From the NCBI GenBank assembly GCA_949127775.1, contig CASBQF010000378.1:1-42908 (forward strand): 42,908 nucleotides of DNA, in the 5' to 3' direction. The position numbers and the translations under genes are program-made. Positions within the stretch are counted from its first letter, which is position 1, and each line of letters opens with the position of its first letter. Origin of the DNA: Oscillatoriales cyanobacterium PMM_0080. GTDB taxonomy: Bacteria; Cyanobacteriota; Cyanobacteriia; Cyanobacteriales; Microcoleaceae. A model generated the notes under the pieces. That model was not told where the DNA came from, did not search any database, and saw only the letters and a list, made by a program, of their open reading frames with translations. This document shows, piece by piece, positions 23,543 to 26,976 of this stretch.

Positions 23543-23734
23543 GCTCGCACCAGTTTCAAATTTGAGATATTAGATATTGTCTGCTTTGAAAGATAACTCA
23601 AAATGGCTTTTATTGCTAGTCTGGCAATTGACTCAGCCGTTTTATAATCTGCAAAACGCCAATGAAATACAGAACAAGTTAATTTTGTTGAGATGTCGGT
23701 TGATTAGGATTTACGATCAGAAATTTTCTGTAAA

Positions 23735-24676
23735 TCATTCTATTTTGGGGCCGATATACCCAATGATTATCTTTCCCGGCCCTAATTCCGTGCAGAAATG
23801 GAGTCGCCAAGCTCCCGGTGTCATGCGGATGTGCAAACTGAAAATACGCTTTTTGCCGTCAAGACACTGAATATTTAGTTGCTCTCTAAACTGCTTAAGC
23901 CTTGACTCACTCTCTGGAGATGCCTTACTAGGAAGATTATCTAAATTTAGTGCTCCGTCTGTCCAGATTTTAGATAATTCATCAAGCTCAAATAACTTTC
24001 TGACAACTTGTCGTAACATTTTGGGATCGATAAGGCTTTGTATTTGTTCGCTAGTGCGATCGCAAAATTCCAGGCAGGAGAATAACTCAACTCGACGGTT
24101 CCAAAGCTCTAAACCATTAGCCACCGCTGTTTTCTGACGTTTCTGAATCCAATCAGCGTGTTCGAGAACATGGTTTTTATGACTAGCATGAGAAACCTCT
24201 ACACTTTCTTGTATCAGTTCTCCCTGTTCATCAATTTGGAGCAATTCTAACTTAATGCGATTGCTATTCCATAGCGAGTCTGAAGTCAGACTAATTGCCA
24301 ATATTTCAAGGTAGTAAGCAAACTTAAAGCCTTCTGCTTGGCTACCCTCTAAACTCAACTCACAATCGGGATTTTCAACTTTTATTTTAATTTCTAGATT
24401 GGGAATATCAACGGACAAAGGAGATTTAGTTGCCAGAGTCCTCAGAAAAGTCCGCTCTTCTCTATTAACTTCATTATCATTACGCCAACGAGAAAGAGGA
24501 TAGTTTTCTGCAAGTACCATAGCATGAAAATCTGCTTGAGTGCGAATTCCCTTTAATCCACACCGTTTAGCTTCACGCATCGTACTAATCAAGTCTGACA
24601 TCCATTGTCGTGCTATAGAAATATCAGAAGCAAGATTTTGCGCGGATAGTTCATTAAACACCATCTCCAAATCCAT
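23735..24676 (-). CDS. Third protein of the DUF262/ATPase module, unknown family
   Basis: I do not recognise the family. The 313-residue product is largely helical at the N-terminus (ELSAQNLASDISIARQWMSD, DLISTMREAKRCGLKGI), has a beta-rich middle (EIKIKVENPDCELSLEGS, IKLELLQIDEQGELIQESV) and ends in a compact beta stretch at about 275-311: RIFSLHIRMTPGAWRLHF, then GKIIIGYIGPKI. That tail looks like the beta-sheet core of small RelE-type endoribonucleases; this is inference. No membrane or signal segment is seen. It starts 3 bp after the ATPase stop codon, and its ribosome site (AAGGAGAG) lies in the end of the ATPase gene, so the two are translated together. Its function should be linked to the ATPase and DUF262 protein. 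Confidence 0.85.
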   Translation of the reverse strand: MDLEMVFNELSAQNLASDISIARQWMSDLISTMREAKRCGLKGIRTQADFHAMVLAENYPLSRWRNDNEVNREERTFLRTLATKSPLSVDIPNLEIKIKVENPDCELSLEGSQAEGFKFAYYLEILAISLTSDSLWNSNRIKLELLQIDEQGELIQESVEVSHASHKNHVLEHADWIQKRQKTAVANGLELWNRRVELFSCLEFCDRTSEQIQSLIDPKMLRQVVRKLFELDELSKIWTDGALNLDNLPSKASPESESRLKQFREQLNIQCLDGKKRIFSLHIRMTPGAWRLHFCTELGPGKIIIGYIGPKIE

Positions 24677-24679
24677 CGC

Positions 24680-25828
24680 TTACTCTCCTTCCACCGCAGG
24701 TTCCAACAAAATCTCCAAGCTGTTATCCCATTCATCAAAAAAACCATCGGGCCAGCGATCAATTCGTCCGTTGCGATCGATTTTTGGCGATATTACCTCA
24801 GTCACAGCTTGTCCTTCTTTATTTTGACGCTGGAAGTAATGCAATTGAACATCTTTCGGGTCAAGTTTGCCCCCGTGAACCGCAAGACGAATCCCATTTA
24901 AAACATGATCGCTGTGAGTTTCTATCACAACTTGAACGCCACCGCTAGCAGCCAAACCTAATAATTGACCCATTTTAACTTGTCCTTTGGGGTGGAGATG
25001 CGCTTCTGGATTTTCAATTAAAATGATTGTACCAGGTGTTGATGCAAGTGCCGCTACAATAATTGGTAAAGTGTAGCTAATTCCAAATCCCACATTAGTT
25101 GCACGGTAAGGATTACTATCCCCATAAGAATATTGAAAACTCATCAAATCGACATCAGACTTGGCGTCAATTTTGAGACGCGTACCCGGACTAATTTCTC
25201 CCATCCATGCCTCAACTTGGTCGATTAAATCCATTGATTTTGCCGAAGATAGGTCTCTTTGAGTCTTTGATTTTACCTCGGGATGGCTGAGACCACTATT
25301 TGGAATAGCTTTCTGTCCATTAATAGCAAGAAAATGAGCAGCATATTCACCTTTGATACCCAATTGACCAAGCTGTCGTACTTGGTAATCTGACATTTCA
25401 TTAAATGGGCGCGGCCCGATCCGTTCGGCCTGAAGATAATGAAATTTATTGCCAAAAAGATTCGATTGATATACTTCCGAGCTAACTGGTTCTGAGTCAA
25501 TGCTCAACACATCTACCTCTCTATCATATTTGAAATGCCATACCGCTTTGTTGTTATTTTCCAAAACTATACCAAAACCAATCAAGTCCTCTTTTGCCCC
25601 CTCAAAAAGTGCATCTTGAGCAGTACCAACATTCACAAAATCTCCATTAAGTGCCAACCCTTTTTCTGGCAACAAACCCTGTTGATAAGATTGTCGTAGC
25701 AGCAGGAGCGATTGCATAACAGAAGATTTGCCAGTGCTGTTTAAACCGGAAAACAAAGTGAGTTTTTTGAATTGCAATAACTGACTCGCAAAAGGTTTGA
25801 AGTTGAGCAAGTGTAGCGAAGTAATCAT
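24680..25828 (-). CDS. AAA15/21-type ATPase with C-terminal DUF3696
   Basis: The 382-residue protein is an ABC/SMC-like ATPase. Walker A is GLNSTGKSS (28-36), the signature-like FGISYTLPIIVAALAS is at 248-263, Walker B with catalytic Glu is IILIENPEAHLHP (268-280), and the switch histidine is in ETHSDHVLNGIRLAV (303-317). The last ~35 residues (KIDRNGRIDRWPDGFFDEWD) match DUF3696. No Toprim domain is present, so it is not an OLD-type nuclease on its own; the effector must be another subunit. It overlaps the DUF262 gene by 4 bp (ATGA) and lies 3 bp from the third gene. Such ATPases are frequent in anti-phage cassettes, where they sense or regulate. Confidence 0.93.
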   Translation of the reverse strand: MITSLHLLNFKPFASQLLQFKKLTLFSGLNSTGKSSVMQSLLLLRQSYQQGLLPEKGLALNGDFVNVGTAQDALFEGAKEDLIGFGIVLENNNKAVWHFKYDREVDVLSIDSEPVSSEVYQSNLFGNKFHYLQAERIGPRPFNEMSDYQVRQLGQLGIKGEYAAHFLAINGQKAIPNSGLSHPEVKSKTQRDLSSAKSMDLIDQVEAWMGEISPGTRLKIDAKSDVDLMSFQYSYGDSNPYRATNVGFGISYTLPIIVAALASTPGTIILIENPEAHLHPKGQVKMGQLLGLAASGGVQVVIETHSDHVLNGIRLAVHGGKLDPKDVQLHYFQRQNKEGQAVTEVISPKIDRNGRIDRWPDGFFDEWDNSLEILLEPAVEGE

Positions 25829-26976
25829 GCCAGAACCTCTTTAATTATTTGTTCAATTATCATAAATCTGTACTCGATTTTTTCCGCTGCTTGAGAGATA
25901 GAAGTCGAAAAATCTCGATCGCTATCTACATATTTTCTAAAATTTTCCATCAAATTATCCTTTCGTTGTTTCAAAATGTCAATTTGCTCATCGTTAAGTA
26001 AACTGAGGTTGACTGACCAAACTTCAAATAATGCTTTATTAATTGGAAACATTTTGGTTTGGTATTCAGAAATTTTACGGAAGGCATTTTTCCCAAAGAT
26101 TTCCCATGCTGCAATCATAGCTTTTTTGAAAATATTTTCAATTTTTTGTAATTCCGATTCAGACATATTATTAATCTTAGACAACGCTTTACTTAAAAAT
26201 AAATTTCTAGTACCAGATTGATAATCTTTATAAGATGTAAGCGTAAATGCTAAAAAACCGAGTATGAATTCTCGATCGTCCATCCGCATTTTACGCAACT
26301 TGCTGAGATTAGTCACTTGCTCGAATTCATTAGATGTCGCAAGTTGAGCTAAAAACTTTGTTGCCTTACCGGGGTTGAGAGCATGGCGCAGTTCTTGGGG
26401 AGTCATGGGTAATCCCCCTGTATTAATGCGTTTAAAAATGTTATATTTAACTTCAGGAGGCGTACCTTTTTCAATCAAATAAACTGTCACCTGAGTTTCT
26501 TGAATGCGACGCTGGTATCGGCGTTCTATTTCATCATAAGTTTTGCCATCAAAATTGGTTAAATATTCTAGTCCGCATAACCTAAGTGTTTTATCGCTCA
26601 TAAATTGCTTGAGAGCAGATAGGCGCTGCAATCCATCCACAACCAACCATTTATCTTCATCAGTTGCATCAATATAAAAAGCTGGTAATGGAATCCGAAT
26701 CAGGATCGACTCAATCAGTCTGCTTTTAGCGTCATTTTTCCAGATGTTTGCATGACGCTGAAAGTCTGGTGCTAAGTCAAGAGCTGCCTCATCGATTCTT
26801 CTTAGGAGTTGCTCAATAGTTGGTTCTTTGGTAAAAATATTTATTTTTTCAGGATCATATATCAATCTGTCTGTTTCATAGGGTTCATCACCGTTATCTT
26901 CTTCTTGACTCCAATTTAAGTCATCAATCGAATCTGGGTTGGATACTTGCTGATATGGTTGTGACTGATTTACCAT
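25825..26976 (-). CDS. DUF262 family protein
   Basis: DUF262 is a ParB/sulfiredoxin-like fold found in GmrS-type restriction subunits and other defence proteins. Here residues 49-130 carry its marks: TIEQLLRRIDEAALDL, the DFQRHANIWK box (71-80), LIESILIRIPLPAFYID and DGLQRLSALKQF (114-125). In most members this last motif is DGQQR; Leu replaces the first Gln. The C-terminal half (about 190-383) is helical and has no HNH/DUF1524 nuclease motif, so any cutting would come from another subunit. The first 48 residues are acidic and probably disordered. The start has AAGGAG about 9 bp upstream. It is the first gene of a tight three-gene operon. Confidence 0.92.
   Translation of the reverse strand: MVNQSQPYQQVSNPDSIDDLNWSQEEDNGDEPYETDRLIYDPEKINIFTKEPTIEQLLRRIDEAALDLAPDFQRHANIWKNDAKSRLIESILIRIPLPAFYIDATDEDKWLVVDGLQRLSALKQFMSDKTLRLCGLEYLTNFDGKTYDEIERRYQRRIQETQVTVYLIEKGTPPEVKYNIFKRINTGGLPMTPQELRHALNPGKATKFLAQLATSNEFEQVTNLSKLRKMRMDDREFILGFLAFTLTSYKDYQSGTRNLFLSKALSKINNMSESELQKIENIFKKAMIAAWEIFGKNAFRKISEYQTKMFPINKALFEVWSVNLSLLNDEQIDILKQRKDNLMENFRKYVDSDRDFSTSISQAAEKIEYRFMIIEQIIKEVLA

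Follow-up and report, generated by a model that had tools for sequence, protein, structure and literature searches.

On the minus strand of a 42,908-nt stretch of DNA from Oscillatoriales cyanobacterium PMM_0080 (Microcoleaceae; GCA_949127775.1, CASBQF010000378.1, positions 1-42,908; the whole stretch is referred to as the window), three closely packed genes code for a DUF262 protein, an ATPase and a protein of no recognised family, which raises the question of whether they represent a new defence system or a known one, and which of their products is the effector. The operon is almost certainly the anti-phage system Menshen (nsnA-nsnB-nsnC), because all three proteins match PADLOC models over nearly their full length: NsnA matches PDLC03877 (E 6.1e-134, 445.1 bits, residues 23-382), NsnB matches PDLC03878 (E 4.8e-126, 419.2 bits, residues 1-376) and NsnC matches PDLC03879 (E 3.5e-98, residues 1-312). 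It is a well supported cyanobacterial member of an already named system, and the system itself is not new.

The initial annotation had proposed a candidate new defence system, naming Menshen as a possible relative. The latter was the right lead, and the reading as an anti-phage cassette is borne out as likely. The claim of novelty is superseded by the gene-for-gene match to a named system, an outcome which the annotation had itself set against its proposal, and the layout has also been published as ptuXYZ. A new, unnamed system, in favour of which stands the lack of a significant Pfam or NCBIfam family in NsnC, was ruled out by the matches of all three proteins to the Menshen hidden Markov models, each with an E value below 1e-97, and its probability is practically nil. 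None of the three proteins was named by NCBIfam above cut-off.

NsnA, NsnB and related systems

In the case of NsnA, Pfam detected a GmrSD_N (DUF262) domain at residues 54-199 (E 2.9e-23) and no DUF1524/HNH, as had been annotated. The ATPase was likewise correctly described as devoid of Toprim: NsnB comprises AAA_15 (E 1.2e-21) and DUF3696 (E 3e-21), with no Toprim found by Pfam. The AlphaFold model of NsnA has a predicted local distance difference test (pLDDT) score of 81 and a helical C-terminal half, its best Foldseek match being BrxU (7p9k; probability 1.00, E 9.3e-4). Residues D114, G115, Q117 and R118 are kept in all 22 aligned NsnA rows, the window reading DGLQR; the corresponding GmrS motif is given as DGQQR in the available text of a review (PMC10952713). 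The P-loop of NsnB (G28, N30, S31, G33, K34, S35) and its ENPE motif (E272, N273, P274, E275) are invariant in 15 rows. Searching solved structures by sequence gave no significant match to NsnA, NsnB or NsnC.

According to the accessible part of the same review, Menshen holds a DUF262 protein without DUF1524, and protection is lost when the DUF262 gene is mutated or deleted. The operon described here agrees with Menshen in all three proteins, in gene order and in operon form. However, the review, in the text available, ascribes an OLD-type Toprim nuclease to one component (PMC10952713), whereas NsnB combines AAA_15 with DUF3696 and shows no Toprim match.

Several other systems share single components with the operon. 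GmrSD, BrxU and SspE have the DUF262 domain in common with NsnA, BrxU being the best structural match, but NsnA lacks the DUF1524 HNH nuclease, and the ATPase and the third protein are separate here; a GmrSD type IV restriction enzyme was ruled out by the absence of this nuclease (Pfam). The PADLOC model PD-T4-2_A also matches NsnA (131.7 bits), though below the score of the NsnA model, and the partners here are nsnB and nsnC. Septu PtuA, Gabija GajA, PARIS AriA and HEC-03 carry an AAA_15/P-loop ATPase domain as in NsnB, but their partners are unlike those of NsnB, and the PADLOC scores of HEC-03B (121.6 bits) and AriA (84.8 bits) are far lower than that of the NsnB model.

The accessible part of the paper on ptuXYZ (Gerdes 2025, PMC11980606) describes a DUF262 protein devoid of HNH, an ATPase resembling PtuA and a third protein whose N-terminal domain is PIN-like and whose C-terminal domain is of the YoeB/HigB-like BECR kind; PtuX is termed a putative nuclease there, and the model shown comes from Flavobacterium, whereas the present operon is cyanobacterial. 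The order of a DUF262 protein without HNH, a P-loop ATPase and a two-domain protein with a BECR-fold C-terminus is the same. Pfam and the helical C-terminal half of its model agree with NsnA being such a DUF262 protein, and NsnC, judging from its model, would carry the C-terminal BECR (YoeB-like) fold. NsnB reaches 31.8 bits against PtuA in NCBIfam (cut-off 500) and E 7.5e-11 in PADLOC, which are sequence scores, whereas PMC11980606, in its available text, used structure. The two names, ptuXYZ and Menshen, probably denote the same thing. No link to Menshen was found in the part of PMC11980606 available, a count of the word in its text giving zero, and Microcoleus, cyanobacteri- and Oscillatoria are absent from its main text. 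Among its references is a publication by Millman and others which, going by the authors listed, may be the one on Menshen. A literature search for ptuXYZ/PtuZ gave nothing relevant beyond this paper.

Operon layout, site and distribution

As can be seen in Table 1, the three minus-strand genes have the coordinates, lengths and strand initially annotated, with the 4-bp overlap and, as read directly, a 3-bp gap separating nsnC from the end of nsnB; the last ribosome site was indeed found inside the ATPase gene. The flanking genes are also as described (a desaturase/SDR and a GH10-like gene), being assigned by Pfam to FA_hydroxylase-like/SDR, with the FA_hydroxylase match below its cut-off, and GHL10. 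No transposase or integrase was seen, in line with the annotation, in a Pfam scan of five window genes only. The G+C content of the cassette is 39.2% versus 45.6% for the window, and a promoter/terminator scan gave sites not in excess of shuffles. The remnant tails listed last lie between nsnC and the SDR gene, while the gene bodies, kept by other genomes, are missing here.

Table 1. Features of the Menshen operon in the window
Feature	Position	Strand	Description
nsnA	25825..26976	-	383 aa; DUF262/GmrSD_N (ParB/Srx-like) domain and helical C-terminal half, no HNH
nsnB	24680..25828	-	382 aa; AAA_15 ATPase and C-terminal DUF3696, no Toprim match
nsnC	23735..24676	-	313 aa; two-domain protein, likely effector
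nsnC N-terminal alpha/beta domain, possibly PIN-like	24125..24676	-	about residues 1-184
nsnC C-terminal RelE/YoeB/ParE-like (BECR) domain, class 1 allele	23738..24088	-	residues 197-313; assignment putative
nsnC ribosome site AAGGAG, within nsnB	24685..24690	-	read directly
ATGA, in which the nsnA stop and the nsnB start overlap	25825..25828	-	4 bp; read directly
Remnant tails of polysaccharide deacetylase and HSDR_N-like genes	23566..23731	-	blastn, empty sites versus window

Seven of the 29 genomes of the genus carry the operon (window included), and in each of the six relatives it is flanked by the same GHL10 and SDR genes. The site was fetched for 21 of the 22 non-carriers (not G003), and 15 of these stretches span both flanks without Menshen, albeit with the SDR gene reached only at its start in G024. 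These 15 sites hold one or two HSDR_N-like open reading frames (15/15), a polysaccharide deacetylase (14/15) and a whole or partial Uma2 gene (10/15), the families having been assigned by Pfam on one representative each (HSDR_N below cut-off) and otherwise by reading translations. Uma2 is also found beside nsnA, in pieces in G011, G015 and G025 and as a whole gene in G007.

On the GHL10 gene tree of the 29 genomes, carriage needs five changes, all imposed by branches with good support, although such changes cannot separate gain from loss and the genomes labelled "none" include G028, where a divergent Menshen is present at another place. Shuffled carriage labels required 6.3 changes on average and were as low in 70 of 500 cases; since the observed number is near the shuffled level, carriage is hardly clustered. 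The nearest relative of the window on this tree, G010, is without the operon. Within the set of seven carrier genomes, G025 has the nsnA and nsnB most similar to the window's (92.2 and 94.5% DNA identity), while the window's flanks most resemble those of G008 and G017 (about 91%). Hence, the cassette, or its flanks, recombined between species.

These data bear on the view that the genes form a housekeeping or other non-defence operon fixed in the clade. The common site of the seven genus copies speaks for it, as does an nsnA adjoining a GHL10 homologue in a member of another genus. Nevertheless, NsnC is unmatched in 22 of the 29 genus genomes (some of them only 74-94% complete), the 15 sites spanning both flanks lack the cassette, and at least five changes are needed on the flanking-gene tree. 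The set, for which the initial annotation had considered universal synteny, keeps its synteny across the genus yet is patchy in occurrence (7/29), hence not universal, and a housekeeping role, ruled out by this patchy carriage, is very improbable.

The site itself yielded two further observations. In G029, belonging to another genus of the family, an nsnA of 66% identity, truncated where the contig ends, follows shortly after a GHL10 homologue (L119:1144-3823); the operon site may predate the genus or represent a hot spot. In G001, a 1573-aa open reading frame, TPR-CHAT-like by eye, occupies the position that in other genomes is taken by the deacetylase or Menshen (L100:1239-5960), the SDR gene not being found within the 10 kb fetched.

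A scan of genome contigs with the NsnC alignment gave 35 loci, all cyanobacterial judging by record title; as it needs near-exact peptide stretches, the scan reaches close relatives only. The nsnB gene adjoins nsnC in all 35; nsnA is present in 32, and in the remaining three a contig end truncates the locus. Internal deletions in operon genes affect L146, L158 and L159. Among 59 genomes searched, the window's own included, NsnC was matched in 12 and NsnB (E <= 1e-30) in 15, and 11 have both in the same order. In the other NsnB genomes (G055, G057, G028 and G034), the third gene matches other PADLOC NsnC models; their C-terminal halves differ, and neither Pfam nor NCBIfam assigned a toxin family to them. 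NsnC thus follows NsnB in 15 of the 15 NsnB-positive genomes, and the outcome which the initial annotation had set against its reading, a third gene occurring mostly without the other two, did not materialise. The three-gene arrangement is not due to chance. Two exceptional copies were encountered: a decayed one in G049 (L023:3389-3916), with the N-terminal part of nsnA beside the C-terminal half of nsnC and nsnB missing, and the divergent Menshen of G028 (L123:6483-9778), located away from the window's site and bearing an NsnC C-terminal half of another type.

With the profile of the NsnC C-terminal domain, at least 9 of 242 genomes of the class were positive, this being a lower bound as up to 18 candidates per genome were scored: the window's own, seven adjoining nsnB and one weak match (E 5e-4) on another kind of protein. 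At L188:1480-2721, the weak match (E 5e-4) to this half of NsnC is at the C-terminus of a coiled-coil and, by eye, probably membrane-anchored protein, with no nsnA, nsnB or nsnC match within the 3.2 kb fetched. A Methylobacterium plasmid carries an NsnC-like gene of 31% identity, which suggests that NsnC also occurs outside the cyanobacteria. Among viral contigs, none of 80 pattern stretches encodes an NsnC relative, and phage records were also without a match. Spread by a phage or plasmid vector is unsupported, given no viral relatives and a single plasmid match at such identity.

The third protein and the exchange of its C-terminal half

The third protein, which the initial annotation did not recognise, has no significant Pfam family and no NCBIfam family. 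The structural neighbours of the C-terminal domain in its AlphaFold model (pLDDT 80) are toxins, and NsnC appears to end in a RelE-type toxin domain that is swapped between strains, its N-terminal domain possibly being PIN-like. Foldseek on the whole of NsnC returned nothing at E <= 0.001, RelE standing at rank 13 with a probability of 0.69; the best sequence matches to solved structures (E 0.78 and 0.11) were unrelated proteins; Pfam toxin families, including BECR, had no match with an E value of 10 or less in eight C-terminal domains (HMMER filters on); and a profile comparison with nine RelE/ParE proteins of the window's own genome was negative and did not exceed the NsnA control.

The C-terminal half of NsnC is modularly exchanged. 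Between the window and both G007 and G025, nsnC DNA is 79-89% identical in three 150-column blocks and then 56-58% in two, the drop beginning at about window position 24144 (last incomplete block excluded). Among 31 NsnC proteins, left after removal of stops, cut ends and near-duplicates, two homologous classes of C-terminal half, of 23 and 8 rows, were assigned by eye ahead of the tree, with L022 intermediate and L141 (class 1) having a class 2-like tail. These halves are combined with dissimilar N-terminal ones: the window and L130 share 81% identity in the N-terminal half versus 33% in the C-terminal half, whereas L136 and L139 share 47% versus 81%. On the N-terminal-half tree the classes need six changes, three of them forced by starred branches, which is close to the mean of 7.3 under shuffled class labels (74 of 500 shuffles needed no more), and monophyly of class 2 was rejected by the approximately unbiased (AU) test (p 7.2e-5).

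Two side observations concern the same half. An in-frame stop occurs in NsnC after 194 residues in L013 (= L126), 283 in L153 and 231 in L160, either ahead of the toxin half or within it, while the nsnA and nsnB matches run most of their length; errors of assembly or of metagenome-assembled genomes are possible. In two Okeania genomes (L149:6547-7902, L153:5456-7080), the 3' end of nsnC, coding for the toxin half, is tandemly duplicated downstream, with identities of 78-96% and the first copies 365 bp apart; a masked or unknown stretch in the L149 array means that an assembly error is possible.

A proposed mode of action and its alternatives

Domain polymorphism of Menshen is reportedly the subject of a paper by Li et al. 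in NAR in 2025. No worked-out Menshen mechanism was found in the literature searched, as far as its text was available and with that paper not included. We propose, with a probability of roughly 0.6, a Menshen operon in which NsnA, a GmrSD-BrxU-type DUF262 protein (NTPase/ParB-like) minus the HNH nuclease, would take part in sensing, NsnB would be the regulatory switch that holds NsnC quiet or releases it, and NsnC would supply the effector in the form of a RelE/YoeB-like BECR toxin domain borne by a PIN-like scaffold. In an infected cell this toxin would cleave mRNA at the ribosome, halting the phage, probably via halting the cell. The third protein as effector, as initially annotated, is upheld as likely only.

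The chief alternative retains Menshen but regards the swapped half of NsnC as a sensor or specificity domain, the effector lying elsewhere, in the ParB/Srx-like NsnA or the complex. Exchange of this half between two classes at one locus is what one would expect of a component exposed to phage pressure, and PtuX is called a putative nuclease in the accessible text on ptuXYZ (PMC11980606). Against this stand the toxins among the fold neighbours of the swapped half and the lack of HNH in NsnA. One must also bear in mind that polymorphic systems swap their toxins as well, and the sensor role seems unlikely. That the C-terminal domain is a ParE-like gyrase inhibitor rather than the RNase favoured here is less probable still.

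More tentatively, and with rather less confidence than in the effector role itself, NsnC may resemble a polymorphic toxin within an intracellular defence complex, in which NsnA, NsnB and the N-terminal half of NsnC stay fixed at one site, the BECR half is swapped by recombination between two homologous classes, and the downstream duplicates in Okeania could be a store of alternative halves.

The operon ties two published names together, Menshen and ptuXYZ, and a RelE/YoeB-like RNase in NsnC would be a concrete effector hypothesis for Menshen. Moreover, related cyanobacteria with very similar NsnA and NsnB carry two kinds of NsnC C-terminal half at the same site, a natural experiment in which effector and specificity roles are separable by comparison.
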